Of a stretch of DNA of 64,000 nt, positions 14,858 through 28,613 are shown in pieces; the first letter of the stretch is position 1; every line of letters begins with the position of its first letter. The translations under genes and the position numbers were made by a program. The notes under the pieces are model-generated. The model did not search any database. It saw only the letters and a list, made by a program, of their open reading frames with translations, and was not told the origin of the DNA. This DNA comes from Alphaproteobacteria bacterium (lineage in GTDB: Bacteria; Pseudomonadota; Alphaproteobacteria; GCA-2731375), in contig JAJFGG010000090.1 in NCBI GenBank assembly GCA_021776235.1, positions 1-64,000 on the forward strand, written 5' to 3'.

Positions 14858-15718
14858 TTATTGTTGCGTTGTCCCTGCGTTGGGAATGAAAAGCGCCTCG
14901 CCGCCGACTGTGACAGCGGCAATGGCTGCTTGCCCGGGAGGCGAGATCAGCCAATCCATGAAACGCCGTGCTGCGGCGGCCTTGACATGAGGGTGCCGCT
15001 CCGGATTAACCAGCATGACGCTGTACTGGTTGCGCAGACCCAGGTCGGGGCGGTCGAAGATGGCGACCAGGTCTCCCTTATCGCGGTAACTCAACCAGGT
15101 GCCGCGATCAGTCAGGCAATAAGCATTCATGGCCGCCGCCATGCGCAAGGTGGCGCCCATGCCGGAACCGGTCTCCATATACCAGAGGCCCGAGCCCGGC
15201 GCGGGATCGACCTTGGCATCGCGCCACAGACCCAGCTCTTTCATATGCGTGCCGCTGTTATCGGCACGGGAGACGAACGCTGCCCGTACGGCGGCGATGC
15301 GGCGCAACGCCTGCAGCGCATCGGCGCTGTGCGCGGCGCCGGCAGGGTCGGCCTTGGGACCGACAATCAGAAATTGATTGTACATGACCGCCCGCCTGTC
15401 GATGCCAAAGCCGTCGGCGATAAATTTCCGTTCCGAGGGCGGATGGTGCACCAGCAAGGCATCCGCATCGCCGTTGCGGGACAGGCGCAGCGCCTGGCCG
15501 GTCCCGACCGCGATGACATGCACCGTAATCCCCGACGATTGGGAAAAGATAGGCAGGATGGCGTCGTACAACCCCGAAGCAACGGTCGAGGTGGTCGAAG
15601 CAAGGGTGATGAAGCGGTCCGCCGCAGCCACGTCATGATAAAGAAAACCGGTGGTGGCAAACGCCAACAAAGCGATTAGCAGGCGCTGCACCCTTGATTT
15701 TTCTTGGTTCTTGGTCAT
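14858..15718 (-). CDS. tungstate/molybdate ABC transporter substrate-binding protein (TupA-like)
   Basis: This 286-residue periplasmic protein has a signal peptide (hydrophobic LLIALLAFATTGFLYH, ending AAADR). The mature N-terminus FITLASTTSTVASGLYDAIL and the following IAVGTGQALRLSRNGDADAL, LLVHHPPSE are diagnostic of TupA-type oxyanion binders. SRADNSGTHMKELGLW is a further family block. TupA proteins bind tungstate, some molybdate, for a TupBC permease. No permease or ATPase gene is adjacent, so it is an orphan here. It lies divergently next to the formate dehydrogenase accessory genes. Because that enzyme needs Mo or W, a supply role for it is a reasonable inference. Confidence 0.85.
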   Translation of the reverse strand: MTKNQEKSRVQRLLIALLAFATTGFLYHDVAAADRFITLASTTSTVASGLYDAILPIFSQSSGITVHVIAVGTGQALRLSRNGDADALLVHHPPSERKFIADGFGIDRRAVMYNQFLIVGPKADPAGAAHSADALQALRRIAAVRAAFVSRADNSGTHMKELGLWRDAKVDPAPGSGLWYMETGSGMGATLRMAAAMNAYCLTDRGTWLSYRDKGDLVAIFDRPDLGLRNQYSVMLVNPERHPHVKAAAARRFMDWLISPPGQAAIAAVTVGGEALFIPNAGTTQQ

Positions 15719-15812: not shown

Positions 15813-16526
15813 ATGCGTTCAAATCCCCAGTTGCCGCCGATGTTCGATCTGTACTCATTGGCTGACGCCGCCCAGGTGAGGGCCGAGGCCCGCCGTTATG
15901 CGCAAGACGGCGGCGAAGCGGGCACCTTTATATGGGCGCCCGATGAAGCGAATTTCAGCGCCTGTCTGGTTCTGGCGCCGGATGAACCCCTGCACACCGC
16001 TGTCCTGTCCGTCTATCTGGGTATGTTGGCCCTTGGCGATGCAGTGGGCGCCTTGATCCCGCCCGGCATTGATCTGACTTTTTCATGGCCCAATCAACTC
16101 AACCTCAATGCGGCCCGCGTTGGCGCCGTCGATCTGGAACTACCGCCGGATAGTTCGGCGGCAGCGGTGCCGGAATGGCTGCTGCTTTCGTTTGGCCTGG
16201 CACTCAACGCAACCGGCGCCGACCTGAGCTTGCACACGACCACTCTGGAAGACGAAGGCTGTCTGGATGTGGAAAGCGCCGAGATTCTGGAAACGCTGGC
16301 GCGCCATGCCCTGGTCTGGTCGAACCGCTGGCAGGATGACGGCTTTGCGCCGGTGCGGACCGCCTGGGCTGCCCGGGTGGCGGCAGAGACCGAATTGTTG
16401 AATCTCGAAACCGGACCAGGGCGCTTTCTTGATCTGGATGCTGCGGGTGACCTTGTTGTCGAGACCACGGGCGGGCCGCTGACGTTGCCCCTGTTGGGAA
16501 CGTTGGAGGCAGGGTCGCTGGCATGA
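15813..16526 (+). CDS. biotin/lipoate protein ligase-like protein (DUF4444 type)
   Basis: This protein of about 237 residues resembles the biotin/lipoate A/B ligase-like family with a C-terminal DUF4444 tail (LDLDAAGDLVVETTGGPLTL). The N-terminal part reads PPMFDLYSLADAAQVRAEAR and GTFIWAPDEANFSACLVLAP, a degenerate version of the ligase fold. The lysine-rich active motif of true biotin or lipoate ligases is not evident. The ATG at 15813 is a provisional start, and the frame is open upstream to 15651. It overlaps the next gene by 4 bases (ATGA) and heads the formate dehydrogenase accessory operon. A role in maturing that enzyme is inferred from position only. Confidence 0.7.
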   Translation: MRSNPQLPPMFDLYSLADAAQVRAEARRYAQDGGEAGTFIWAPDEANFSACLVLAPDEPLHTAVLSVYLGMLALGDAVGALIPPGIDLTFSWPNQLNLNAARVGAVDLELPPDSSAAAVPEWLLLSFGLALNATGADLSLHTTTLEDEGCLDVESAEILETLARHALVWSNRWQDDGFAPVRTAWAARVAAETELLNLETGPGRFLDLDAAGDLVVETTGGPLTLPLLGTLEAGSLA

Positions 16527-17023
16527 AATTCCCGCAGACCATACAGCTTGACGCTTCCGACCAGTATATCTTTGACAACGCGGCCCGGCCCGGTGAATGG
16601 GCTGTTTCGGGGGCCTTTGCCTTCGCCGGCGAAGCCATTGATCCGGCCGCCCTGGACGGCGGGGACGAGATTGCCTTTGCCACCGCCTTCATGGGCACCA
16701 GGAGCTTTGGCTGGTCCACCTTCGTTGTCGTCAAGGACATCAGCCCAGAGGCGTTTGACGCCGTGGTCGCTGCCTTGGCGGATCATTTCCTGAGCCATTA
16801 CAGCGCCCCGGACCGTGCGGCCGCCATGGCCGCGGCCCGGGAGGAAGCGGAATTCGCCGCCTCTTTGTGCGACCATCCGGTCAATACCCTGTTGGGGCTG
16901 GAGCGCTCCCTTGGCGATGACGGCATCACGGAGCAGTTCCGCACCATTGTCGGGCAGGACGAAAGCGCCCATGGCCCGGCCTGGGAACTGGTCGAGGATG
17001 ATGGTAACACCAATGGCCCATGA
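16523..17023 (+). CDS. DUF6505 family protein
   Basis: This 166-residue protein fits DUF6505, found beside formate dehydrogenase genes in alphaproteobacteria. Features are MKFPQTIQLDASDQYIFDNA, GEWAVSGAFAFAG, SFGWSTFV and EFAASLCDHPVNTL. It has no signal peptide or membrane segment. It starts inside the stop of the ligase-like gene (ATGA), so the two are translationally coupled. The function is unknown. Conserved co-location suggests a cytoplasmic assembly or quality-control role for formate dehydrogenase. Confidence 0.72.
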   Translation: MKFPQTIQLDASDQYIFDNAARPGEWAVSGAFAFAGEAIDPAALDGGDEIAFATAFMGTRSFGWSTFVVVKDISPEAFDAVVAALADHFLSHYSAPDRAAAMAAAREEAEFAASLCDHPVNTLLGLERSLGDDGITEQFRTIVGQDESAHGPAWELVEDDGNTNGP

Positions 17024-17058
17024 AACAGGTTAATATCAATGACCATTGGTGTTAGGCC

Positions 17059-18102
17059 ATGAGCCAGGCGAAGCCGAACCCGGATTTCTGGTTATCCTCG
17101 GGTTTTCAATACCTCTCCCGGGATCAGGACGGCTATCTGGCGGTCACCGACGAATTTCTTGGCGCTTATTTCCAGCGGCCTGAAATTCGCCCGGTGGAAG
17201 AGTCCTGCGCCGCTGAACGGGCCCTGCACCGGCGCCTCAGCAAGGAGCCCCGGTCCGCGGTATCGGACGCGGACCTTGTAGCCCTGCAGGATCCGGACGC
17301 GGTTGAGAATTACCGTATCGTGCTGGATTTCCGCGACCGTCTGATTGGCGCCGGTACCCTGGAAGGCTGTTACCTCTCCCTGTTTGCGGATCAGCGTGTG
17401 CCGGTGCCGCCCCTGTTCGTGGCTCAACTGACCCACGTGATACTGCGTAATATCCTGGACGATTGTACGGATCCTATGCGCCTGCGGGCCGGCGAGATCC
17501 TGTTTCGGCCGCAAAAGGTGACTGTCCGCGAGGGCGCCATTTTGCTGGCCGATAACGAAACCGTCGAGATGCAGGCCACCGCCGGCGCCCAGGCGCCCGC
17601 CGATCTGCTGAATATGGCCGGCGCCGGTGGTCAAGGGGCCGGCCTGCGGCAGATCGAACTGGATGTCCTGCGCCGCGACAACAAGGATCTGTATTGGCCG
17701 CGCAGCGATCAATTCGACACGGTGCTGGACATCACCTCCCATCGCCCCGGCCTGGATGCCCTGTGCCGGGTTCTGGAAGGCTGGGTTCGCCATTTCACGA
17801 AAATTGACGCCTCGATCCAATCCGCGCAGAGCGTGACTGACGACAACTGGGTCTGGCACATCGGCCTGGACGCCGAGGCCAGCGGCATTTTAAACGATCT
17901 TTACAACGACAAGCCGGTCGCGCCCGCGCGCCGGGACCGCATCCTGGCCCTGTTCAGAATGACGGTAAAAGACGAGGCGCCCTTCCTGCCGACAGTCGCC
18001 GGAAGGCCGATCTATCTGGGTCTTGCCATGGCGGCCAACAATGTTGTGACCGTCAAGCCGCAAAACCTACTGGTTAACCTGCCCCTGTTGCCCACCGCCT
18101 AG
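17059..18102 (+). CDS. DUF6352 family protein
   Basis: This 347-residue soluble protein matches DUF6352. Characteristic blocks are NPDFWLSSGFQYLSRDQDGY, VTDEFLGAYFQRPEI, PVEESCAAERALHRRLS and YLSLFADQRVPVPPLFVAQL. It has no known activity. It is the third gene of the accessory operon, 35 bases after DUF6505. The TAG stop at 18100-18102 lies inside a dispersed palindromic repeat that also supplies the stop of the convergent Fe-S gene. Confidence 0.75.
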   Translation: MSQAKPNPDFWLSSGFQYLSRDQDGYLAVTDEFLGAYFQRPEIRPVEESCAAERALHRRLSKEPRSAVSDADLVALQDPDAVENYRIVLDFRDRLIGAGTLEGCYLSLFADQRVPVPPLFVAQLTHVILRNILDDCTDPMRLRAGEILFRPQKVTVREGAILLADNETVEMQATAGAQAPADLLNMAGAGGQGAGLRQIELDVLRRDNKDLYWPRSDQFDTVLDITSHRPGLDALCRVLEGWVRHFTKIDASIQSAQSVTDDNWVWHIGLDAEASGILNDLYNDKPVAPARRDRILALFRMTVKDEAPFLPTVAGRPIYLGLAMAANNVVTVKPQNLLVNLPLLPTA

Positions 18103-18154
18103 AGCAAAGAGTTAGAGCAACTTGTCTGCGTTCGAATGAAGGCAGGTTGCCCTA
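18100..18154. repeat. palindromic TAGAGCAA repeat between convergent genes (likely bidirectional terminator)
   Basis: TAGAGCAA occurs at 18100-18107 and again at 18113-18120. The second copy pairs with TTGCCCTA (18147-18154) around TTGTCTGCGTTCGAATGAA. The first copy contains the stop of the DUF6352 gene, and the far arm contains the stop of the opposing Fe-S gene. A related element follows purA at 53345-53386. Confidence 0.65.
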
Positions 18155-20248
18155 ATTGTCGTCGTCCCTGTTGGCTTCATGGTCCCGCTTCAATTGTGCT
18201 CTTTGCCGCTGGATTTCCCGTTCGCGCAAATCATCCTCGGTGGTGCGCGGCAGGGGTCTTTGCGGCCCGGCATTGAAAGCGCCGTCCTCCATTTGCGCCA
18301 CGACGCGGCAATTGTCGCACATTTTGATCCGGTCGATGGCGGCGCCGCTTTGGAACATGGAATGCTTGCCGGCCAGTTTTTCGATGACCGCCTCGACCGA
18401 GCTTTTGACGCCAAAGGGTTCGCCGCAGCGAATGCAGGCGAACGGTTCCTCTTCTTTCAGGGTGATGGCCTGGCGGGCGCTGTTGGTGAAATTATAGCGT
18501 GGCTGCAACTGAATAACTTTTTCCGGGCAGGTATTGCGGCACAACCCACATTGTACACAGGCCGCTTCCATGAAACTCAATTTCGGCGACGCCGGATTGT
18601 CCATGATCGCCCCGGTTGGACAGGCGCTGACACAGGACAGGCACAGGGTGCAGTTTTCCGTATCCACCTGAATGGCGCCATAGGGCGCGCCCTGGGGCAG
18701 CGCGACGGCTTCGACGCTTTCAGGCGCCGCGCCGTGCAGTTGTTGCAAGGCCAGGGCCGTTACGGTGCGCCTGCCCCCAGAGGCCAAAAAGCTGCCGAGA
18801 GCCAGGCTGTCTGCCCTGGCATGGGCATACAACGCCGCTTCAATGGCGCTGGGATCGGCCTGATCCAGGATCATGATCCGACTGTCGCCAAAGCCGAGGC
18901 CGGCCACCAGGGCGTCGGCATAGCTGATCTGCTGCGCCAGCGCCGCATAGTCTTCGGCCCTGCCCGGCGGGCACAAAATAAACACCTGTCCCGCCCCATA
19001 GCCCAAGGCCGCAAGCAGCAGGTCCAGACTGATCTGGCTGACTTCGTTAAGAGGGAAGGGCAGCACATTGACCGGCAGGCCCCGGCCATGGCGCGCCAGC
19101 ACCGAGATCAGTTCATCGCCGTAGCGGGGATCGTGCAGCAACAGGGCCGGCTGGCTGCCGCCGGCCTTGAAATACGCCAGTAGCAGGGTCCGCAGGCGCT
19201 CGGCCACGGTTTCCACTGCGGGCAGGGCATAGCTGGCCGCACCCGTGGGACATACACTGCTGCAGTGGCCGCAGCCGCCGCAGACAAAAGGATCGATCTT
19301 GACGTGGTCGCCGTCGGGCTGGATGGCCGAGGTGGGGCAATTATCCAGACAGCGGGTACAGCCGACGATCCGGCTGCGCGAATGGACGCATAATTCGGCG
19401 TCGTAGGTAACGTAAATGGGCTTGTCGAACGCGCCGACCATACCGGACAGTTCGTACAGGGCTTTTTGCACCGCGGCCGGATTGCCCCGGTCGGGGCGCA
19501 GATAGCCATCCCGCCGCTCGCCCCCTGGAAACAACGCTGTATTGCCGCTCAAATCCAGAATCAGATCGCATTGCAGGCTGGTTTCCCTCGCGGCGCCGTC
19601 AAATGCCAGGTGGTCGCGGGAGGAGACGCTGGCCGTGGCCTGCTTTCGGATCGCCAGATCGAAGGCGCCCAGATGGCCCGTAGCCTGCACAATGTCGCCA
19701 CTGAGCAGAGGAAACCGGGTCACGCGCGGCGGCGATGCCTCTGCGCCGCTGTGCAGCAGTACCATGACCTCCAGCCGGTCCGCCAGCTGCGCCGCCGCGT
19801 CCAAGGCCGCGTCATCGCAGCCATAGACAAGGCACCGGCCTTCCGATTGCAGGCTGATGCTGGGCGTGGCTGCAATATCCAGGGTGGCCTCGGCCAACAG
19901 CGCGGCGATTTTCGCCGTGCCGTCGCTCTGGTCCGCGTCTTGCGACCAGCCGGCCCGTTCGCGGATATTGGTGAAGCCCAAAGCAAAGTTAGGCGCGGCA
20001 GCGGGCGCCGACTCGGCCATCACTTCGGCCGCAACCTCGGAAAACAAAGGGGCTTCCTGGGTGCAGGCCACCATGACCGTTCCGCCGGTCTTTACGGCGG
20101 CCTTGAAGGTTTCCAATTGGGCTCGACAAAGATGGTTGTTGACAGGCAATGCCCCGTCCGCGCCGCAGGCCCTGCCCAACGCCGCGCCATTCAGGTTCAT
20201 GGTCCCCTCGCAATTGCACAAAAGGACCGTCTTGCCATTCAAATTCAT
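18152..20248 (-). CDS. large 4Fe-4S ferredoxin-type protein linked to formate dehydrogenase
   Basis: This 698-residue cytoplasmic iron-sulfur protein opens MNLNGKTVLLCNCEGTM. It then has a cluster motif CTRCLDNCPTSAI preceded by other Cys, CGGCGHCSSVCPTGA (middle), CTLCLSCVSACPTGA and CVQCGLCRNTCPEKVI (C-terminal half). A late CIRCGEP...CDNC pair may bind zinc. The region between the paired clusters resembles a flavodoxin-like or hydrogenase-delta-like electron-transfer domain. I start at the ATG at 20248, since upstream codons are not protein-like. It runs against the flanking genes but lies inside their cluster and diverges from DUF3305. The likely job is electron supply during cofactor insertion or transfer from formate oxidation, which is inference. 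Confidence 0.8.
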   Translation of the reverse strand: MNLNGKTVLLCNCEGTMNLNGAALGRACGADGALPVNNHLCRAQLETFKAAVKTGGTVMVACTQEAPLFSEVAAEVMAESAPAAAPNFALGFTNIRERAGWSQDADQSDGTAKIAALLAEATLDIAATPSISLQSEGRCLVYGCDDAALDAAAQLADRLEVMVLLHSGAEASPPRVTRFPLLSGDIVQATGHLGAFDLAIRKQATASVSSRDHLAFDGAARETSLQCDLILDLSGNTALFPGGERRDGYLRPDRGNPAAVQKALYELSGMVGAFDKPIYVTYDAELCVHSRSRIVGCTRCLDNCPTSAIQPDGDHVKIDPFVCGGCGHCSSVCPTGAASYALPAVETVAERLRTLLLAYFKAGGSQPALLLHDPRYGDELISVLARHGRGLPVNVLPFPLNEVSQISLDLLLAALGYGAGQVFILCPPGRAEDYAALAQQISYADALVAGLGFGDSRIMILDQADPSAIEAALYAHARADSLALGSFLASGGRRTVTALALQQLHGAAPESVEAVALPQGAPYGAIQVDTENCTLCLSCVSACPTGAIMDNPASPKLSFMEAACVQCGLCRNTCPEKVIQLQPRYNFTNSARQAITLKEEEPFACIRCGEPFGVKSSVEAVIEKLAGKHSMFQSGAAIDRIKMCDNCRVVAQMEDGAFNAGPQRPLPRTTEDDLREREIQRQRAQLKRDHEANRDDDN

Positions 20249-20361
20249 GCCGCCAACCCCCGTGCCCGCACAATCCTGGCCCGGATCATATACCCACAAT
20301 GGTTTGAACAGGAACCGTTGGATCCGCTATCATGGCGACGGAGCCATAAAAAGGGGTGCAG

Positions 20362-20895
20362 ATGCAACCGCTTGAAAGCATGCCCATGGGCGTCGTGCTG
20401 GAGCGCCGGGAGATCGATAATCCGTGGCAGGATCATGTCTGGCGCGCGGTGGCGGTGCTGCCCGGCGCCGCAGCGATCGCCGGCTGGCGCGATTTGGGTA
20501 GTGGCGACGGCTGGGCCCGCTTCCATGCCGCGACGCTGCCGCTGGAATTACATCGTTCGGATACGGAAGCCTATCGGGTCAACCTCTCGGACGATCCGCC
20601 CCGTATCTATGTGGTGCTGCGGGACGATGACGAAGACGATGGCGGCTATGGCGTTGCGCCCTTTCTCGTCACCGTCTCGGCCTTCGAGGCGCAGGATTAT
20701 CTGGACAGCGGCGAGGAGGAGGTTGAAGGCGTCCAGATGCCCGATGCGGTCATCGCCTGGGTGCAGGCTTTCATCGACAAGCACCACGTGGACGAGCCGT
20801 TCAGGAAACGCAAACGGGACCGTCTGGACCCGGACAAGTTGGGCTTTGGCCGGCCCCAGGTCACCAGGGGCGGCAAGCGCCTGCAGGATGAATGA
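20362..20895 (+). CDS. DUF3305 family protein
   Basis: This 177-residue soluble protein matches DUF3305. It starts MQPLESMPMGVVLERREIDN and then PWQDHVWRAVAVLPGA. The core LELHRSDTEAYRVNLSDDPP and YVVLRDDDEDD is family-typical, as is the basic tail. DUF3305 and DUF3306 genes occur together next to formate dehydrogenase in many proteobacteria, and their role is not established. Its stop overlaps the next gene by 4 bases. Confidence 0.8.
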   Translation: MQPLESMPMGVVLERREIDNPWQDHVWRAVAVLPGAAAIAGWRDLGSGDGWARFHAATLPLELHRSDTEAYRVNLSDDPPRIYVVLRDDDEDDGGYGVAPFLVTVSAFEAQDYLDSGEEEVEGVQMPDAVIAWVQAFIDKHHVDEPFRKRKRDRLDPDKLGFGRPQVTRGGKRLQDE

Positions 20896-21434
20896 CCGCC
20901 ATGTCGGATGATAGGGAAAGTCCACTAGGCCGTTGGTCCCGCCGCAAGACCGAGGTCCGCGCCGGCGCGAAATCCCAAGACCCAGGCCCGCCCTCGGCAC
21001 CGGATGCCGCGGCGCCGGTGCCCCAGACGGAGGATGCCGAGGCAGACATCGTTGCGCAGCTTCCCGATATTGATGACATGGATGGGGACTCCGATTTTTC
21101 GGTTTTCATGCAGGACGGTGTCCCTGAAGATTTGCAGCGTCTGGCATTGCGCAAGCTTTGGTTGTCCGACCCGGTCTTGGCCAATGTGGATGGCCTGGTA
21201 GACTATGGTGAGAATTTCTCCGTCGCCGAAACCCTGGGCGGTGCCGTCAAAACCATCTATCAGGTTGGCAAAGGCATGATCGACGAGGCGGCGGAAGAAG
21301 CGGCGCCAGGGGACGGCGCCGATCAGATTGCCGGGGACGGCGCGGCCGAAATTGCCGGGCAAAACGCCGATGGTGAGAGCCCGCCGGCGAGCCAGGGGCG
21401 ACCAGAGGACGGCGATCCGCCCGATCAAGCTTAG
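20892..21434 (+). CDS. DUF3306 family protein
   Basis: This 180-residue acidic, soluble protein matches DUF3306. It has the conserved opening ESPLGRWSRRKTEVR and the core FMQDGVPEDLQRLALRKLW followed by LSDPVLANVDGLVDYGENF. The C-terminal 60 residues are low-complexity Ala/Glu/Asp. It is translationally coupled to DUF3305 (ATGA overlap) and precedes the TorD-like chaperone. A role in formate dehydrogenase maturation is inferred from constant co-location. Confidence 0.82.
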   Translation: MTAMSDDRESPLGRWSRRKTEVRAGAKSQDPGPPSAPDAAAPVPQTEDAEADIVAQLPDIDDMDGDSDFSVFMQDGVPEDLQRLALRKLWLSDPVLANVDGLVDYGENFSVAETLGGAVKTIYQVGKGMIDEAAEEAAPGDGADQIAGDGAAEIAGQNADGESPPASQGRPEDGDPPDQA

Positions 21435-21589
21435 GTGAAGATGGCCTCGGTTCGCCCGGCAGTCGATATTGCCCTTCCATCCAGGCAATTTCTCGCCTAG
21501 ACTGAAATTGTAGAATACAAAAAAACCATCCTGCCTGGCTGGTCCAATTGGTAATCTGACGGTGTCTGCGATGAACCATACGGCAGGAG

Positions 21590-22240
21590 GTGTGGAGGTG
21601 CCTTTTGGGGAGGCAAACCCAGCCGGGTGATGGCCAAAGCTATCAACTCGTGCGTGAAGAAGACCAACTGCGTGGCGAATGCTACGCCTTGTTGGCAAGT
21701 TTGTTATGCGCACCGCCGGACGAAGGGCTGTTGGCCCTGACTGCCGAAATTGACGGCGACGAAACGCCCATGGGCCGCGCTTTGACCGCGCTGCAGCAGA
21801 CGGCGGCGGATACCAGTGCCGATATCCTGACACAGGAATTTCAGGATCTGTTCATCGGCGTCGGCGGCGGCAACCTAAAACCCTATGGCTCCTACTATCA
21901 GACTGGATTTCTGTACGAGAAGCCGCTGGCGAAGTTACGTCACGACATGGAGCAGATGGGCATTGCCAGGCTGGAAGAAGTGAAAGAGCCGGAAGATCAC
22001 ATTGCCTCGTTATGCGAAATGATGGCCGGCCTGATCAGCGGTGAATTTGGCGGCGAGGCGGGTGGGCCGACCGACCTGCAAACCCAGCAATGGTTTTTTC
22101 AACGGCATTTAGCGCCCTGGGCAGGCCTGTTCTTTACAGATCTGGAGACGGCGGCCTCGGCGCAGTTCTATGTGCCGGTGGGGACCATCGGCCGGCTGTT
22201 CATGGAAATTGAGGCCACCGCTTTTGAAATGGCGGCCTAG
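21590..22240 (+). CDS. TorD/DmsD family molybdoenzyme chaperone
   Basis: This protein of up to 216 residues is an all-helical TorD-type chaperone that binds the Tat signal and apo-form of a molybdoenzyme until the cofactor is inserted. Visible blocks are LRGECYALLASLLCAPPDE, EFQDLFIGVGGGNLKPYGSYY (the family's E-x-LF-G...P..S motif) and KEPEDHIASLCEMMAGLI with the conserved EPEDH. The start is uncertain: GTG at 21590, or TTG at 21605 with GGAGG six bases upstream. It immediately precedes the Tat-tagged small protein and the alpha subunit, its probable client. Confidence 0.88.
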   Translation: MWRCLLGRQTQPGDGQSYQLVREEDQLRGECYALLASLLCAPPDEGLLALTAEIDGDETPMGRALTALQQTAADTSADILTQEFQDLFIGVGGGNLKPYGSYYQTGFLYEKPLAKLRHDMEQMGIARLEEVKEPEDHIASLCEMMAGLISGEFGGEAGGPTDLQTQQWFFQRHLAPWAGLFFTDLETAASAQFYVPVGTIGRLFMEIEATAFEMAA

Positions 22241-22299
22241 TGAGAAACGACCAGATACGAACGATCTGAATTCGAACGACCAACAAAAGGGATGAGGCC

Positions 22300-22524
22300 A
22301 TGAAACACAAGGATGACGCCCGAAAGACGGTCGGCAACAAGGCCGAGGATCAAGGCGTAGAACGGCGTGGGTTTTTCAAATTGCTTGGGTTGGGCTCCAT
22401 GGCCGGTGCCGCGGCGGTTGCCGCACCGGGCGCCGTAAGCGCGGCCGAGGCCGAAGAAACCAAAGGCGCCGGCTATCGGGAAACGGCGCACGTGAAGACC
22501 TACTACAAGCTAGCCAAATTCTGA
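22300..22524 (+). CDS. small Tat-signal protein of the formate dehydrogenase region
   Basis: This 74-residue protein is the short twin-arginine peptide seen before formate dehydrogenase genes. The signal reads ERRGFFKLLGLGSMAGAAA, and the conserved tail reads GYRETAHVKTYYKLAKF. It has no catalytic domain. Such proteins are thought to help export or assemble the membrane complex. It lies 36 bases before the alpha subunit in the same operon. Confidence 0.88.
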   Translation: MKHKDDARKTVGNKAEDQGVERRGFFKLLGLGSMAGAAAVAAPGAVSAAEAEETKGAGYRETAHVKTYYKLAKF

Positions 22525-22560: not shown

Positions 22561-25434
22561 ATGTTGACAAAACGGACAAACGGAGTGGCGAATGGCCCCC
22601 GGCTATCAAAGGCCCTTACCGGATTGACGGGTGGTGCTGTTGACCGCCGCACATTTTTGAAACGTTCCGGCCTGGCGGCGGGCGGCATTGCCGCGGTGGC
22701 CGGCGCCGGCGGCGGCATGGTCCGGAAGGCGAAGGCTCAGGCCGCGGCGGGCGCGGCAAAGCTGGATCGCGTTCGTAGTGTCTGTACCCATTGTGCGGTT
22801 GGCTGCACGGTCGAGGCGGAAGTGCAAAATGGCGTCTGGGTTGGCCAGGAACCGGGCTTCGATAGTCCCATAAACCTTGGCGCCCATTGTGCCAAGGGCG
22901 CCGCGGTGCGGGAACACGCCCATGGCGAGCGCCGCTTGCGCTATCCCATGAAAATGGTCGACGGCAAATGGCAAAAGATCGGCTGGGAACAGGCCGTCAA
23001 TGAAATCGGCGACAAGATGCTGGAGATCCGGAAATCGTCCGGCCCGGATTCCGTCTATTGGCTGGGTTCCGCCAAATATAGCAATGAACAGGCCTATCTG
23101 TTCCGAAAATTCTACGCTTTCTGGGGATCCAACAACGGCGATCATCAGGCGCGGATCTGTCATTCAACCACGGTCGCGGGTGTGGCGAACACCTGGGGCT
23201 ATGGCGCCATGACGAACTCCATGAACGATATCCATAACAGCCGCGCCATCTTCCTGATTGGCGGCAACCCGGCGGAAGCCCATCCGGTGTCGTTGCTGCA
23301 CATCCTGAAGGCCAAGGAGCAGAACAACGCTTCCCTGATCGTCTGCGATCCCAGGTTCACGCGCACGGCGGCGCATGCGGATGAATTTGTCCGCATGCGC
23401 TCAGGCAGCGATGTGGCGCTGATCTGGGGTATTCTGTGGCATGTCTTCCGCAATGGCTGGGAGGACAAGGAATTCATCCGCCAGCGGGTCTATGGCATGG
23501 AAGAGATAAAGACCGAGGTCGCAAAATGGACCCCGGAAGAAACCGAGCGGGTAACCGGTGTGCCCGGGTCGCAATTGAAGCGGGTTGCCAGAACCCTGGC
23601 CAACAGCCGGCCGGCGACGGTGATTTGGTGCATGGGCGGAACCCAGCATACCAACGGCAACAACAACACACGGGCCTATTGCATCCTGCAACTGGCGCTG
23701 GGCAATATGGGCGTGACGGGCGGCGGCACCAACATCTTCCGCGGCCACGACAACGTCCAGGGCGCCACCGATATGTGCGTCCTGTCCCATTCCTTGCCGG
23801 GTTACTATGGTCTGAAGACCGGTTCCTGGAAGCACTGGGCCCGGGTCTGGGATGTCGACTACGAATATCTTAAGGGCCGCTTTGCCACCCAGAAATTGAT
23901 GGAGAGCAAGGGTATACCGGTCTCCCGCTGGATCGATGGGGTGTTGGAGAACAAGGACAACATTGATCAGCCCGATAACCTGCGGGCCATGGTTTTCTGG
24001 GGTCATGCGCCGAATTCACAGACCCGCGGCGTCGAAATGAAAAAGGCCATGGAGAAGTTGGACCTTCTGGTGGTGATCGACCCGTATCCGACTGTGTCCG
24101 CGGTGATGCATGACCGCAAGGACGGCACCTATCTGTTGCCGGCGACCACCCAGTTCGAGACCTATGGTTCGGTCACGGCGTCCAACCGCTCGTTCCAATG
24201 GCGGGAAAAAGTCGTGGAGCCGGTCTGGGATTCCAAGCCCGACCACGAAATCATGTACCTCTTTGCCAAGAAATTCGGCTTGGACAAGGAGATGTTCAAG
24301 CATATCAAGGTCAACGGCAACGAGCCCTTGATCGAAGACATCACCCGCGAATTCAACAAGGGCATGTGGACCATCGGCTATACCGGCCAGTCACCGGAGC
24401 GGATGCGGTTGCACATGGCGAACCAGCACACCTTTGACCGCACCACCATGCAGGCGGTCGGCGGCCCCGCGGACGGCGAGTATTACGGTTTGCCCTGGCC
24501 CTGCTGGGGCACGCCGGAAATGAAGCATCCCGGTACCCCTCTGTTGTACGACACCTCCAAGCCGGTGGCGGAAGGCGGTTTGACCTTCCGGGCCCGTTAC
24601 GGGGTGGAACGGAATGGCGTCAATCTGCTGGCCGAGGGATCCTATTCCGTCGGCTCCGAGATCAAGGACGGCTATCCGGAATTCACCATGGCCATGTTGA
24701 AAAAACTGGGTTGGGATTCAGATTTGACCGCTGCGGAACGGGCGGCGATCGAAAAAGTCGCCGGCGACAAAACCAATTGGAAGACCGACCTGTCGGGCGG
24801 CATCCAGCGGGTGGCGATCAAACATGGCTGCGCCCCGTTCGGCAACGCCAAGGCACGCGCCGTGGTCTGGACTTTCCCAGATCCGGTGCCCCTGCATCGG
24901 GAACCATTGTATACGGCACGGCGTGATCTGGTGGCGGACTATCCTACCTACAGCGACCGCCAGTCCTATCGACTGCCAACGCTGTATGCCAGCATCCAGA
25001 AGAAGGATTTCTCCAAGGATTTCCCCATTGTGCTGACGAGCGGCCGCCTGGTGGAATACGAGGGCGGCGGCGACGAGTCACGCTCCAATCCCTGGCTGGC
25101 GGAATTGCAGCAGGATATGTTCGTCGAGATCAATAAATACAATGCCAATAACACGGGCATTCGGGATGGCAGCTGGGTCTGGGTTCATACGCCGGAAGGC
25201 GCGAAGATCAGGGTCAAGGCCATGGTTACGGAACGGGTGGGCCGCGATGTGGCCTTCCTGCCGTTCCATTTCGGCGGCGTCTTCCAAGGCAAGGATCTTC
25301 GGGACAAGTACCCACAGGGCGCTGATCCTTATGTCCTCGGCGAAGCGGCCAATACGGCCATGACCTATGGATACGATGTGGTAACGCAGATGCAGGAATC
25401 CAAAACCACTCTTTGCAGAATTGAAAAGGCATAA
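22561..25434 (+). CDS. fdhA: formate dehydrogenase alpha (catalytic) subunit, Mo/W-bis-MGD
   Basis: This 957-residue periplasm-facing enzyme oxidises formate to carbon dioxide. A Tat signal carries RR at residues 29-30 (DRRTFLKRSG). A 4Fe-4S cluster is set by Cys75, Cys78, Cys82 and Cys110, with Lys112 as electron relay. The active site reads ARICHS at about 199-202, so the metal ligand is Cys200, not selenocysteine, followed by the essential His201 and TWGYGAMTNS. Two molybdopterin-binding regions follow, and the C-terminal block LTSGRLVEYEGGGDESRSNP is typical. It starts at an ATG after GGAGAG. The operon continues into the beta and gamma subunits. Length and context fit the FdhABC membrane type rather than the NAD-linked soluble enzyme. 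Confidence 0.95.
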   Translation: MLTKRTNGVANGPRLSKALTGLTGGAVDRRTFLKRSGLAAGGIAAVAGAGGGMVRKAKAQAAAGAAKLDRVRSVCTHCAVGCTVEAEVQNGVWVGQEPGFDSPINLGAHCAKGAAVREHAHGERRLRYPMKMVDGKWQKIGWEQAVNEIGDKMLEIRKSSGPDSVYWLGSAKYSNEQAYLFRKFYAFWGSNNGDHQARICHSTTVAGVANTWGYGAMTNSMNDIHNSRAIFLIGGNPAEAHPVSLLHILKAKEQNNASLIVCDPRFTRTAAHADEFVRMRSGSDVALIWGILWHVFRNGWEDKEFIRQRVYGMEEIKTEVAKWTPEETERVTGVPGSQLKRVARTLANSRPATVIWCMGGTQHTNGNNNTRAYCILQLALGNMGVTGGGTNIFRGHDNVQGATDMCVLSHSLPGYYGLKTGSWKHWARVWDVDYEYLKGRFATQKLMESKGIPVSRWIDGVLENKDNIDQPDNLRAMVFWGHAPNSQTRGVEMKKAMEKLDLLVVIDPYPTVSAVMHDRKDGTYLLPATTQFETYGSVTASNRSFQWREKVVEPVWDSKPDHEIMYLFAKKFGLDKEMFKHIKVNGNEPLIEDITREFNKGMWTIGYTGQSPERMRLHMANQHTFDRTTMQAVGGPADGEYYGLPWPCWGTPEMKHPGTPLLYDTSKPVAEGGLTFRARYGVERNGVNLLAEGSYSVGSEIKDGYPEFTMAMLKKLGWDSDLTAAERAAIEKVAGDKTNWKTDLSGGIQRVAIKHGCAPFGNAKARAVVWTFPDPVPLHREPLYTARRDLVADYPTYSDRQSYRLPTLYASIQKKDFSKDFPIVLTSGRLVEYEGGGDESRSNPWLAELQQDMFVEINKYNANNTGIRDGSWVWVHTPEGAKIRVKAMVTERVGRDVAFLPFHFGGVFQGKDLRDKYPQGADPYVLGEAANTAMTYGYDVVTQMQESKTTLCRIEKA

Positions 25435-25446
25435 GGAGAATAAGTC

Positions 25447-26043
25447 ATGGCAAGAATGAGATTTCTCTGCGACGCCGAGCGCTGCATCGAATGCAATGCC
25501 TGCGTGACGGCCTGCAAAAACGAACATGAAGTCGCCTGGGGGATCAACCGCCGCCGGGTGGTGACCATCAACGACGGCAAGCCGGGGGAACGCTCCATAT
25601 CGGTCGCCTGCATGCATTGTTCGGACGCACCCTGCATGGCGGTCTGTCCTGTCGATGTCTTTTACCAGACCGAAGAAGGCGTGGTATTGCATTCCAAGGA
25701 TCTGTGCATCGGTTGCGGCTATTGCTTCTATGCCTGTCCTTTCGGTGCGCCGCAATATCCCCAGGCCGGGAACTTCGGCACCCGCGGCAAGATGGATAAA
25801 TGCACCTTCTGCGCCGGTGGTCCCGAAGATGACAACAGTTCCGCGGAGTTTCTGAAATATGGCCGCAATCGCCTGGCCGAAGGCAAATTGCCCCTGTGTG
25901 CCGAAATGTGTGCGACCAAGGCCCTGTTGGCCGGTGACGGCGATGTGGTCTCGAATATCTACCGCGAACGCGTCGTGGCCCGCGGTTTCGGCGCCGGCGC
26001 CTGGGGTTGGGGAACGGCCTACAAGAGAAAGTCGGGTTCCTGA
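25447..26043 (+). CDS. fdhB: formate dehydrogenase beta subunit (four 4Fe-4S clusters)
   Basis: This 198-residue ferredoxin-type subunit passes electrons from alpha to the cytochrome b subunit. Cys motifs are CIECNACVTACKNEHE, CMHCSDAPCMAVCPVD, CIGCGYCFYACPFGAP and the fourth set including CTFCAGG and CAEMCATKALL. No C-terminal membrane anchor is present, unlike the longer enterobacterial FdnH/FdoH, so it must attach through the gamma subunit. It starts 12 bases after alpha, following AAGGAG. Confidence 0.93.
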   Translation: MARMRFLCDAERCIECNACVTACKNEHEVAWGINRRRVVTINDGKPGERSISVACMHCSDAPCMAVCPVDVFYQTEEGVVLHSKDLCIGCGYCFYACPFGAPQYPQAGNFGTRGKMDKCTFCAGGPEDDNSSAEFLKYGRNRLAEGKLPLCAEMCATKALLAGDGDVVSNIYRERVVARGFGAGAWGWGTAYKRKSGS

Positions 26044-26084
26044 GCCGCGTTCCCATAGGACGATTACTTGTTGCAGTCTGATCC

Positions 26085-26114
26085 GGGGCGGCACATCGCG
26101 GTGCCGCCCCTTTT
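26085..26114 (+). terminator. terminator-like hairpin between beta and gamma subunit genes
   Basis: GGGGCGGCAC (26085-26094) and GTGCCGCCCC (26101-26110) form a perfect 10-bp GC-rich stem with a six-base loop followed by TTTT. It sits 16 bases before the gamma start codon at 26131. It would terminate part of the transcripts, lowering gamma relative to alpha and beta, or protect the upstream mRNA. Confidence 0.65.
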
Positions 26115-26130
26115 CCTTGGAGGCGGAGCG

Positions 26131-27282
26131 ATGATCCTGCGGCGCATGGGGCTGGCGATAATGCTGGGGCTGAATCTGGCGATAAATCTGTTGGCGGTCT
26201 TGGCGGTCCTGGCCACGCTCGGTTTCGCGAACCTGGCATCAGCCGACGAAATCCCGGTCTCGAATGTGCGTCCGCCAGAGGGCCGGGACGAACAGAAATG
26301 GGGCGGACCGGCTAAATTGCCGGCAACGGTTCTGCCGCAACGAAGCGATCCCAAAATATGGCGGGACATTCGCCATGGTGTTTTTGGCACGGTCTCCATT
26401 CCTGACAAGAAGGCTGCACAGCTTGTGCAATCCGCCGGCACCGACTGGCAGACATTTCGCAACGGCCCCGTCTCCACCTGGGGCGGTTGGGGCCTGGCGG
26501 GTATCGTGGTCCTGCTGGCCTTGTTCTTAACCACCCGCGGCCGTATCGCCATAGATGCCGGTCCAAGCGGCCAGACCATTGAACGTTTCAATGCTCTGGA
26601 ACGCTTTGCCCATTGGCTGTCCGCCGGCAGCTTCGTGGTTCTGGCCCTGACCGGGCTGAACCTGTTGTACGGCCGGCAAATCCTGCTGCCGCTATTGGGC
26701 CCGGAGGCCTTTTCGGCGCTGAGTGTGGCCGGGAAATATGGCCACAACTACCTGGCCTTCGCCTTCATGGCCGGGGTCGTCCTGATGCTGGTGCTGTGGC
26801 TGGGGCAAAACATTCCCAACAAGGATGACCTGATCTGGCTGGCCAAGGGCGGCGGCATGTTCGCCAAAGGCGTCCATCCTCCGGCCCGCAAGTTCAACGC
26901 CGGGCAAAAAATATTCTTTTGGATCGTCATTCTAGGCGGCGTTTCGGTCAGCCTGTCGGGCCTGGCCTTGCTGTTCCCGTTCAAGCTGCCGTTGTTCGCC
27001 GTCTCATTCGAGGTCATGAATATATTTGGCTTCAATCTGCCGACCAACCTGACCGGGTTGGAGGAGGTCCAGCTGTCCCAGCTCTGGCACGCGGTTGTGG
27101 GCCTTGTACTGATCATCGTGATCGTTGCACATATCTATATCGGTACGGTCGGCATGGTCGGTGCCTTCGATGCCATGGGGACGGGCCGGGTGGACCGGAA
27201 TTGGGCCCGGGAACACCACAGCCTTTGGGCCGCGGAGGCCTTGGACGAAGGCAAGGCGTCGTCCGGGGCAGATGCTGATTAG
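26131..27282 (+). CDS. fdhC: formate dehydrogenase gamma subunit (cytochrome b556)
   Basis: This 383-residue membrane subunit carries haem b and delivers electrons to quinone. An N-terminal signal or anchor (hydrophobic to about residue 33) is followed by a periplasmic loop, another segment (LAGIVVLLALFLTTRG) and a four-helix cytochrome b core. The candidate haem-ligand histidines are in RFAHWLSAGSFVVL, KYGHNYLAFAFMAG and QLWHAVVGLVLIIVIVAHIY. The closing GTGRVDRNWAREHHSLWA is family-typical. I chose the ATG at 26131 after GGAGGCGGAG. The frame is open back to 26068, but that stretch is the hairpin. It directly precedes the WD40-cytochrome gene. Confidence 0.92.
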   Translation: MILRRMGLAIMLGLNLAINLLAVLAVLATLGFANLASADEIPVSNVRPPEGRDEQKWGGPAKLPATVLPQRSDPKIWRDIRHGVFGTVSIPDKKAAQLVQSAGTDWQTFRNGPVSTWGGWGLAGIVVLLALFLTTRGRIAIDAGPSGQTIERFNALERFAHWLSAGSFVVLALTGLNLLYGRQILLPLLGPEAFSALSVAGKYGHNYLAFAFMAGVVLMLVLWLGQNIPNKDDLIWLAKGGGMFAKGVHPPARKFNAGQKIFFWIVILGGVSVSLSGLALLFPFKLPLFAVSFEVMNIFGFNLPTNLTGLEEVQLSQLWHAVVGLVLIIVIVAHIYIGTVGMVGAFDAMGTGRVDRNWAREHHSLWAAEALDEGKASSGADAD

Positions 27283-27296
27283 GGGATGCCCACGGC

Positions 27297-28613
27297 ATGT
27301 TTTTTCGGCTCGTGTGCATAACCTTTTTGGCGGCCGCGCTGGCTTTTGTCTATCCCTGTCAGCGCGCCAGAGCGGAACTTGTCGGCCATGGCGGTATCGT
27401 CCACGCCATTGCAATCTCTCCCAATGGCCGCTTTGCCCTCTCGGCCAGCTTTGATTACAGCCTGATCCTTTGGGATCTGGCCGGGCAAACCAAAATACGG
27501 CGCTTTGTTGAACACAACGGAGCGGTCAACGATGTGGCCTTCCTGCCGGATGGCCGGCGGGCAGTATCGGCCAGCGACGACGGCACCGTGCGCCTTTGGG
27601 ATTTGACGGCTGGTACGCTGCAACACACATTCCAGGGCCACGTCGGCCGGGTCGCCAGCATAGCGGTGTCGTCTGATGGGCGCTTTGCCGCCTCGGGTGG
27701 TTGGGATAACACCATCCGGCTTTGGGATTTACAGAACCTTAGCCTGGCGCGGACCTTGCGTGGGCACGACAACAACGTCAACGCCGTGGCCTTTGCCGCG
27801 AACGGCGCAGCGCTGCTGTCTGGCGGCTATGACGGCAGCCTGCGCCACTGGAACCTGGCCGACGGCAAGGTCTTGCGGATAATCCAGGGCAACGGATTTG
27901 CCATCAACAGCGTGCTCTTTGCCCGAGACAGCCGACGCATCATCTCTGCCGGCGTGGACGAAACGATTCGGATCTGGGATATCCAAAAGGGCATCGAACT
28001 GAAGCGTTTGGAAGGCCACGAAGGCGCCATCATGGACCTGGACCTGTCGCCCGATGGACGCTGGGTCGCCTCCGTCGGGGTCGACCAGTTGATCCAGCTT
28101 TGGGACATCGGGACCGGTGGACGGGTTGCCTATCTGCGCAGTGACAGCAGCCCCCTGTGGTCCGTCGCCTTTCATCCCGACGGCAATCGCCTCCTGACCG
28201 GTGGCATGGACGAGACCGTGCGCCTGTGGAATATCCGTGCCGGCGGCGAGATCACGCCGGCGCATGGCCCGGCGGCTGCGGCCGGGGTGGCGGCGGAGAA
28301 CAGCGGCGAACGTGGCGCCAGGCTGTTTCGGGCCTGCCGTGCCTGCCATACCTTGATGTCCGATGGCGGCAACAAGGCCGGCCCCACCCTGCATGGCCTG
28401 TTTGGGCGCAGGATCGGGTCCATGCCGGGCTATTCCTATTCCGACGTCATGAAACGGTCTGCTATCATATGGGACGAGGCGAGCATCGATGCGCTGTTCG
28501 ACCAGGGCCCGGATAAATTTGTTCCAGGTTCCAAAATGCCGCTGCAGCGCATGCCCAACGCAAAGGACCGGGCGGATCTGATCGACTATTTGAAACGTGT
28601 CACGGCCAAATAA
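27297..28613 (+). CDS. seven-blade WD40 propeller fused to a class I cytochrome c
   Basis: This 438-residue exported protein has a signal peptide (residues about 1-26, ending CQRARAELVG). Seven WD40 repeats follow, each ending LWDL-like (ILWDL, VRLWDL, IRLWDL, LRHWNL, IRIWDI, IQLWDI, VRLWNI). After a short Ala-rich linker comes a cytochrome c domain with the haem motif CRACH (about 347-351) and probable axial Met414 in GSKMPLQRM. It lies 14 bases after the gamma subunit, evidently in the operon. It may be a periplasmic electron acceptor, or a scaffold that docks a partner to the formate dehydrogenase. The fusion is clear in one uninterrupted frame; the function is inference. Confidence 0.9.
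   Translation: MFFRLVCITFLAAALAFVYPCQRARAELVGHGGIVHAIAISPNGRFALSASFDYSLILWDLAGQTKIRRFVEHNGAVNDVAFLPDGRRAVSASDDGTVRLWDLTAGTLQHTFQGHVGRVASIAVSSDGRFAASGGWDNTIRLWDLQNLSLARTLRGHDNNVNAVAFAANGAALLSGGYDGSLRHWNLADGKVLRIIQGNGFAINSVLFARDSRRIISAGVDETIRIWDIQKGIELKRLEGHEGAIMDLDLSPDGRWVASVGVDQLIQLWDIGTGGRVAYLRSDSSPLWSVAFHPDGNRLLTGGMDETVRLWNIRAGGEITPAHGPAAAAGVAAENSGERGARLFRACRACHTLMSDGGNKAGPTLHGLFGRRIGSMPGYSYSDVMKRSAIIWDEASIDALFDQGPDKFVPGSKMPLQRMPNAKDRADLIDYLKRVTAK

Follow-up and report, generated by a model that had tools for sequence, protein, structure and literature searches.

Enzymes that carry molybdenum or tungsten (Mo/W) and leave the cytoplasm by twin-arginine translocation (Tat) raise the question of how their clusters are acquired and how their readiness for export is judged. 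A 64,000-nucleotide stretch of alphaproteobacterial DNA (positions 1 to 64,000 of contig JAJFGG010000090.1, assembly GCA_021776235.1; hereafter the window) poses it for a formate dehydrogenase. Next to the structural genes fdhABC, at 15813-22524, lie eight genes, all with open reading frames, for a biotin/lipoate-ligase-like protein, DUF6505, DUF6352, a large Fe-S protein (hereafter the polyferredoxin), DUF3305, DUF3306, a TorD/NarJ-family chaperone and a small Tat-signal protein. An earlier reading of the letters (the sequence-only reading) had proposed a maturation or electron-supply module for a Cys-type Mo/W enzyme. Here, we demonstrate the association of the set with Cys-type FdhA; as to which of the two functions it serves, and what each protein would do, we favor, with a probability of about 0.65, a dedicated cytoplasmic set for assembly and export check of the Tat-exported Cys-type FdhABC. 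Such a set would narrow the assembly of this enzyme to a few genes and list what its heterologous production may be missing.

Association with Cys-type FdhA across genomes

Each family was searched in 219 genomes of Pseudomonadota, the phylum of the window, whose own genome was included; a completeness of 90 or more was requested, and matches were counted at E 1e-100 or better for FdhA and E 1e-30 or better for the polyferredoxin. DUF3305, DUF3306 and Cys-type FdhA each occurred in 36 of the 219 genomes, and comparison of the handle lists by script showed that these are identical sets of genomes. The polyferredoxin was found in 37, namely those 36 and G186, where the match was weak (32% identity). 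All genomes with DUF6505 (20/219), DUF6352 (14/219) or the high-scoring ligase-like clade (19/219; PF16917 matches at 159 bits or more, all others being at 96 bits or less) fell inside the 36. The sequence-only reading had itself stated that its proposal would be refuted if the families occurred independently of formate dehydrogenase in most genomes; no occurrence without Cys-type FdhA was seen for DUF3305, DUF3306, DUF6505, DUF6352 or the ligase-like clade. The 36 genomes span 13 family labels, and the recurrence of the core in 36/219 genomes together with its kept gene order is more than chance.

The strongest point for the association is that co-occurrence outlasts the loss of linkage. DUF6352 is far from fdhA in four of its 14 genomes (about 2.8 Mb in G019, 740 kb in G194 and 176 kb in G175), and in G016 the distance to fdhA is about 33 kb for the polyferredoxin gene, 280 kb for DUF6352 and 378 kb for DUF6505. 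A different collection gave four stretches (L014-L017) with the polyferredoxin gene and DUF3305 and with no fdhA in the fetched DNA; L014-L016 additionally held DUF3306 and TorD, and the L017 stretch is incomplete. The genomes of these four encode FdhA at 72-73% identity, and all 12 genomes behind that collection's matches encode a close FdhA (72-97% identical). Of 72,556 plasmid records, 88 contain DUF3305 and 96 contain FdhA (counted at E 1e-150 or better), with nearly equal genus counts, the comparison being made by genus rather than by record.

The assignment of the enzyme to the Cys type stood up as well. An alignment of the window FdhA with those of 45 loci that had a profile score of 1300 or more showed Cys at the metal-ligand position (ARICHSTTVAG-type motif) in 46/46 proteins, the window protein reading ICHSTTVAG. 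Two genomes carry two FdhA copies each (G174 C97 and G200 C1). The second copy in G200 (L091) is a Tat-FdhABC with no second set in the fetched stretch, and one set may serve two enzymes there.

These distributions bear on the possibility that the set handles tungsten or cofactor in general and is merely parked beside fdh. A TupA-like gene beside the set, and MoeA, MobA-like and FdhD genes among its neighbors, would fit such a role. However, the 183 sampled genomes that lack Cys-type FdhA gave no match to DUF3305, DUF3306, DUF6505 or DUF6352, although 26 of them have FDH-N above its cut-off, another Mo/W enzyme, and we regard general handling as very improbable.

Two assembly regimes for exported formate dehydrogenases

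FdhE is a known accessory factor of exported formate dehydrogenases, described as an iron-binding CX2C protein (PMC10609526). Its family (PF04216) occurred in 29/219 genomes. FDH-N (TIGR01553) scored above cut-off in 27/219, 26 of which had an in-frame TGA in an FDH-N copy, as expected for selenocysteine, and FdhE accompanied it in 27/27; only G079 and G161 had FdhE without an FDH-N above cut-off. One or both of the enzymes occur in 62 genomes; FdhE was present in 26/26 of those with FDH-N only and in 1/36 of those with the Cys-type enzyme, this single genome (G204) also having FDH-N. FdhE avoidance by itself is weak over all 219 genomes (Fisher p 0.056), and the weight rests on which enzyme accompanies FdhE rather than on the avoidance. 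Exported formate dehydrogenases thus fall into two assembly regimes in this sample, FdhE with FDH-N and DUF3305/DUF3306/polyferredoxin with the Cys-type enzyme.

PF04216 gave no match in the window genome or among the families of the proteins of the set. FdhD-type genes are frequent neighbors of the set (18 loci), whereas FdhE had no match in 35 of the 36 genomes that carry it. Bay et al. (2015; PMC4464133) state that the TorDfdh species all have fdhD/fdhE in trans, which for FdhE does not hold in the 219-genome sample.

The polyferredoxin looks like a mosaic

The polyferredoxin has no signal peptide by eye. An alignment of 46 of these proteins shows every Cys of cluster sets I, III and IV in 46/46; of the Cys of set II, three are present in 46/46 and the fourth in 36/46. 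Four further Cys are kept in the tail of 46/46 proteins (CxxC-x35-CxxC in the window, with varying spacing elsewhere), and four extra Cys stand near the N-terminus of 32/32 long forms. In ten loci (L073-L082), set II has Val or Ala in place of its second Cys, a substitution suggestive of a [3Fe-4S] cluster at that site.

The best AlphaFold2 (AF2) model, computed from 11 sequences, had a mean predicted local distance difference test score (pLDDT) of 79.8. Residues 4-360 of the model aligned with 7bkb_A (Z 13.2, root-mean-square deviation (rmsd) 6.0, 331 residues aligned), residues 131-276 with 7bke_A (Z 13.4, rmsd 2.3, 134 aligned) and residues 364-490 with 5odh_D (Z 11.5, rmsd 3.4, 127 aligned). 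Chain A is HdrA by name for 5odc_A; we take chain A of 7bkb and 7bke to be HdrA too, and chain D of 5odh to be MvhD. The HdrA-type motif for flavin adenine dinucleotide (FAD), GxGxxG, is canonical (GxGxx[GA]) in only 5/46 proteins and reads G-C-D-D-A-A in the window. In the MvhD-like region, no Cys column exceeds 6/46, the [2Fe-2S] ligands of MvhD/FlpD being Cys. Because of these two losses, the HdrA- and MvhD-like parts may be scaffolds that have shed flavin and [2Fe-2S]. Flavin-based electron bifurcation by the HdrA-like part was considered and is disfavored, since the FAD motif is mostly lost.

The end of the protein resembles HycF of the Escherichia coli formate hydrogenlyase. A 126-position profile stretch matched 7z0s_F (HycF) at E 5.7e-16, and Foldseek matched HycF at E 1.7e-6. 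A profile of the tail only scored 15.4 bits against E. coli HycF with both CxxC pairs aligned, the best of 2000 shuffled tails reaching 4.6; shuffling also destroys the CxxC pairs, so that part of the score comes from the cysteines alone. The CxxC-x34-CPxC metal site of HycF faces FdhF near the interface, beside Arg122 (PMC9474812). At the place that matches Arg122, 33/46 polyferredoxins have Lys or Arg. As modeled, the protein thus looks like a mosaic of a stripped HdrA-like core, an MvhD-like domain and a HycF-like end.

A composition of this kind also fits the main rival of our proposal, electron supply. The polyferredoxin would then be a lasting cytoplasmic redox partner between FdhAB, either before export or in a retained fraction, and cytoplasmic carriers, with formate oxidized or CO2 reduced inside the cell. 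HdrA and MvhD are electron carriers in methanogen complexes that include one of formate dehydrogenase and heterodisulfide reductase, HycF belongs to formate hydrogenlyase, and the [4Fe-4S] ligand sets are retained save for one Cys in 10/46 proteins. A second molybdoenzyme gene stands beside the set at L049 13125-16040, whose product has 2Fe-2S and Nqo3-type ferredoxin domains as in soluble formate dehydrogenases, and at L047 12117-16184, an FdhA-like match. Yet a Tat signal on FdhA and a cytochrome b subunit imply that the enzyme should work on the periplasmic side. In addition, only 5/46 proteins have a canonical FAD motif, no Cys is conserved in the MvhD-like part, and electron supply leaves DUF3305, DUF3306 and TorD unexplained. 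We consider it unlikely.

At G186 C1:815090-816313 (L090) lies a gene for a protein that is related to the polyferredoxin (32% identity) but shorter, near a distant molybdoenzyme and in a genome without DUF3305 and DUF3306. It may show the origin of this family.

DUF3305 and DUF3306

The only hint at a step for DUF3305 comes from its sequence and points to the guanylylated cofactor. NCBIfam NF011058 is described as MobA, DUF3305 domain-containing, and the window DUF3305 protein matches its C-terminal part (positions 221-370 of 382; 102 bits, E 3e-29, below the cut-off of 820). The fusion to MobA is supported by this NCBIfam model alone. The structural model of DUF3305 is confident (pLDDT 82).

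Searches by sequence for solved structures gave no relative of DUF3305 up to E 0.1 and no convincing one of DUF3306, whose best match (yeast Pry1, E 0.0046) was taken as a composition effect. Both were labeled putative membrane proteins by Bay et al. (2015; PMC4464133). This label was not borne out here, a 19-residue hydropathy above 1.6 being reached in 1/49 DUF3305 and 1/48 DUF3306 proteins, respectively.

The ligase-like protein, DUF6505 and DUF6352 are optional members

Of the 36 genomes, 16 lack DUF6505, 22 lack DUF6352 and 17 lack the ligase-like protein, which makes all three optional. The window's own class holds 17 of the 20 genomes with DUF6505 and 11 of the 14 with DUF6352, and the ligase-like gene and DUF6505 occur together in 19/20 genomes.

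The description of the first protein as lipoate-ligase-like was right about the fold family (PF16917), but the ligase active site has been lost. In an alignment read by eye, 22/22 cluster members lack the GRGRxGRxW loop stretch and have the Lys of KWPND replaced, and a BirA row of the same alignment (L086) retains both; we take these to be the active-site motifs of biotin/lipoate ligases. Ligase activity was rejected because this site is missing. One solved relative of this protein is 3BFM ("Biotin protein ligase-like protein of unknown function"; E 4.6e-19). No convincing sequence relative with a solved structure was found for DUF6352 (best E 0.086) or DUF6505 (best E 0.016).

Patchy occurrence and a ligase fold without its active site, which would suit a ligand sensor, raise the possibility that these three proteins act apart from assembly, as a unit of their own for regulation by, or sensing of, formate or redox state. 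Against it, Pfam shows no DNA-binding or signaling domain in any of the three. Moreover, the ligase-like and DUF6505 genes overlap, almost always co-occur, and on a Tateyamaria plasmid adjoin the gene of an Mrp/NBP35 Fe-S carrier. A regulatory or sensing unit appears improbable to us.

Proposed role in assembly and export control

Assembly and export control is favored because the set is associated with one enzyme, FdhE is absent, TorD lies beside it, Fe-S and cofactor genes surround it, and the polyferredoxin lacks a signal and has a HycF-like end. We infer the following roles. Using its HycF-like end, the polyferredoxin would dock in the cytoplasm on FdhA, or on FdhAB, and would supply the immature enzyme with Fe-S clusters or electrons, by analogy with NapF and NapA. 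DUF3305 and DUF3306 would act where the guanylylated cofactor is inserted, and TorD would keep hold of the signal peptide for as long as assembly lasts. DUF6505, DUF6352 and the ligase-like pseudo-enzyme may be helpers that the set can do without, found mainly in the class to which the window belongs.

A more specific version can be imagined, in which the polyferredoxin is a redox export gate. It would dock on folded FdhAB in the cytoplasm through the HycF-like metal site and draw or give electrons through the Fe-S chain of the new enzyme, so that only a conducting enzyme passes to TorD and Tat, with DUF3305 and DUF3306 as the cofactor-insertion pair. If true, the cell would test enzyme quality by electrical continuity, with a device made of dismantled parts of HdrA, MvhD and HycF, but we hold this to be improbable.

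Several observations pull the other way from the assembly and export proposal. The 36 genomes are related and do not represent 36 independent events, so that Fisher values for co-occurrence overstate the case. The making of an exported formate dehydrogenase does not require this set in every case, as FDH-N with FdhE demonstrates, and the literature searched held no deletion, binding or activity data for the proteins of the set. NapF, the working precedent, can be lost with little effect in E. coli and Wolinella, according to PMC10609526. As for DUF3305, four long frames (L060, L071, L047 and L049) carry the domain without MobA, and its model gave no Foldseek match in the PDB at E 0.001 or better (best VIA Z 2.0), which does not amount to a new fold.

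Other points concern the docking, which is suggested by parts whose known homologues belong to formate or hydrogen complexes. The other four of the five AF2 models of the polyferredoxin had mean pLDDT values of 65.6-71.9. Its Rossmann part is only moderately specific, unrelated flavoproteins reaching Z 10-11 as compared to 13.4 for HdrA, and whole-chain TM-scores to HdrA are low (0.17-0.22); for these reasons, the HdrA assignment draws on how much of the chain the alignment covers and on the subsequent MvhD and HycF parts. Finally, the window protein itself has Glu at the place of HycF Arg122.

Comparison with known systems

NapF, which works with NapD on the periplasmic nitrate reductase, is similar to the polyferredoxin in having four [4Fe-4S] ligand sets and in being tied to one Tat-exported Mo enzyme. 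The two differ in the HdrA-, MvhD- and HycF-like parts and in constancy, the polyferredoxin accompanying its enzyme throughout our sample and NapF often being missing. The window protein also stays below the cut-off of the NapF model TIGR00402 (38.4 against 102.2 bits), and it is about four times as long as NapF. NapF is cytosolic, binds NapA and is needed for reconstitution of the NapA cluster before Tat export (PMC10609526). By analogy, it may serve as a working precedent, with deletion results that are mixed between species.

HdrA and MvhD (FlpD) belong to the heterodisulfide reductase complexes of methanogens, one of which contains formate dehydrogenase. HdrA aligns by fold with the N-terminal, Rossmann-type and ferredoxin parts of the polyferredoxin, and MvhD with residues 364-490 of the model. 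The polyferredoxin, however, lacks much of HdrA (of about 660 residues, about 330 are aligned) and joins counterparts of both proteins in one chain. HycF likewise has two [4Fe-4S] sets and, behind them, a four-Cys site; unlike in its complex, no hydrogenase or complex-I-like gene was found among the window proteins scanned (part of 1-37.6 kb), and the Glu noted above is a further difference.

The linkage of DUF3305, DUF3306, a ferredoxin, a Tat peptide and a TorD/DmsD-type chaperone to fdh is already known, having been in print by 2015: the accessible text of Bay et al. (PMC4464133) reports them in fdhGHI settings, and the ligase-like protein, DUF6505, DUF6352 and the mosaic are not seen in that text. 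It was the only relevant paper found on DUF3305/DUF3306, and none was found on DUF6505 or DUF6352 in a search that left many subscription papers outside. As far as this search reaches, the following are new: the exact co-occurrence, which includes genes without linkage to fdhA; the division of the enzymes by FdhE; the loss of the ligase active site; and the mosaic of HdrA, MvhD and HycF parts.

In Shewanella, genes for an Fe-S protein (SO_4506), FdhT (SO_4507) and FdhA (SO_4509) are consecutive, and SO4719 is tungstate-binding, according to PMC5826389. SO4504 and SO4505 are probably the DUF genes, judging by position. PMC2535785 reports lower SO4503-SO4506, SO4509 and SO4719 in a regulator mutant, and these expression data do not discriminate because fdnG, fdnH and fdhE were lower too. 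Tungsten cofactor assembly has also been described (JBC 2026; PMC13197769), for another enzyme, MeFDH1.

Gene order and neighbors

The genes and families named by the sequence-only reading are all present (Table 1), with families called by Pfam and NCBIfam profile scores. Its statement that all precede the structural genes holds for position before fdhA, but the polyferredoxin gene lies on the opposite strand, divergent from DUF3305. Likewise, the ATGA overlaps said to couple several genes number two (ligase-like/DUF6505 at 16523-16526 and DUF3305/DUF3306 at 20892-20895), whereas the remaining plus-strand junctions up to fdhA have 35 to 155 bases between genes. The TupA-like gene is just outside the 15813-22524 interval and was counted to the same setting.

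Table 1. Genes of the set, the adjacent TupA-like gene and fdhABC in the window.
Product	Position	Strand	Evidence
TupA-like tungstate-binding protein	14858..15718	-	tung_bind_TupA 217 bits (NCBIfam), below cut-off 400; PBP_like_2 143 bits
Biotin/lipoate-ligase-like protein without ligase active site	15813..16526	+	PF16917 BPL_LplA_LipB_2 159 bits
DUF6505 protein	16523..17023	+	PF20115 172 bits
DUF6352 protein	17059..18102	+	PF19879 282 bits
Polyferredoxin (Fe-S protein), apparent HdrA-MvhD-HycF mosaic	18152..20299	-	Several Fer4 models; AF2 model; 698 aa from ATG at 20248
DUF3305 protein	20356..20895	+	PF11749 148 bits
DUF3306 protein	20892..21434	+	PF11748 76 bits
TorD/NarJ-family chaperone	21590..22240	+	PF02613 Nitrate_red_del 109.7 bits, gathering cut-off 22.2
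Small Tat-signal protein	22300..22524	+	TIGR02811 "formate dehydrogenase region TAT target" 54.8 bits, cut-off 48.45
FdhA, Cys-type catalytic subunit with Tat signal, presumed client	22561..25434	+	TIGR01591 474 bits, below cut-off 666
FdhB, Fe-S subunit	25447..26043	+	Fer4 models
FdhC, cytochrome b subunit	26068..27282	+	PF01292 85 bits

A census of gene order covered 49 loci with DUF3305, some of them incomplete. TorD was the most constant member (48 loci), followed by DUF3306 (47), FdhA and the polyferredoxin (45 each), FdhB and the Tat peptide (44 each) and FdhC (43); DUF6505 and the ligase-like gene were present in 22 each, and DUF6352 and TupA (strong match) in 12 each. The commonest order, DUF3305-DUF3306-polyferredoxin-TorD-Tat-FdhABC, was found in 13 loci. 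The polyferredoxin gene is divergent in most of the others, including the window.

Further neighbors were identified by clustering proteins across 60 scanned stretches and naming one representative per cluster by Pfam. Frequent ones were an ABC-transporter ATPase (26 loci), FdhD (18), an Fe-S carrier of the NUBPL/Mrp type (13), a MobA-like protein (8) and TusA (4). MoeA belongs to a mixed cluster of 14 loci, and a cluster of 12 loci, whose representative had no Pfam match, resembles the permease of an ABC transporter.

The Tateyamaria plasmid (60.5 kb) bears the set together with Mrp/NBP35 and DUF6494. Its polyferredoxin is missing from an incomplete gene table, yet it is encoded at L103 7212-9041 (42% identical). 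DUF6494 (63 residues; L103 6226-6417) adjoins Mrp/NBP35 within the set and is possibly a further optional member. A protein without a name is encoded beside the polyferredoxin at L050 6662-7594 and L103 6475-7206, neither copy having a Pfam match, and similar ones occur in L013, L053, L054, L069 and L071; it shows weak TupA-like profile similarity (45-71 bits in six loci, L103 being outside that search).

Directly after fdhC, at 27297-28613 of the window, lies a gene for a WD40-repeat protein, the C-terminal stretch of which resembles cytochrome c (CxxCH, by eye). This protein may accept electrons in the periplasm or work together with FdhC, and relatives of it are present in 19 of the 60 scanned stretches.

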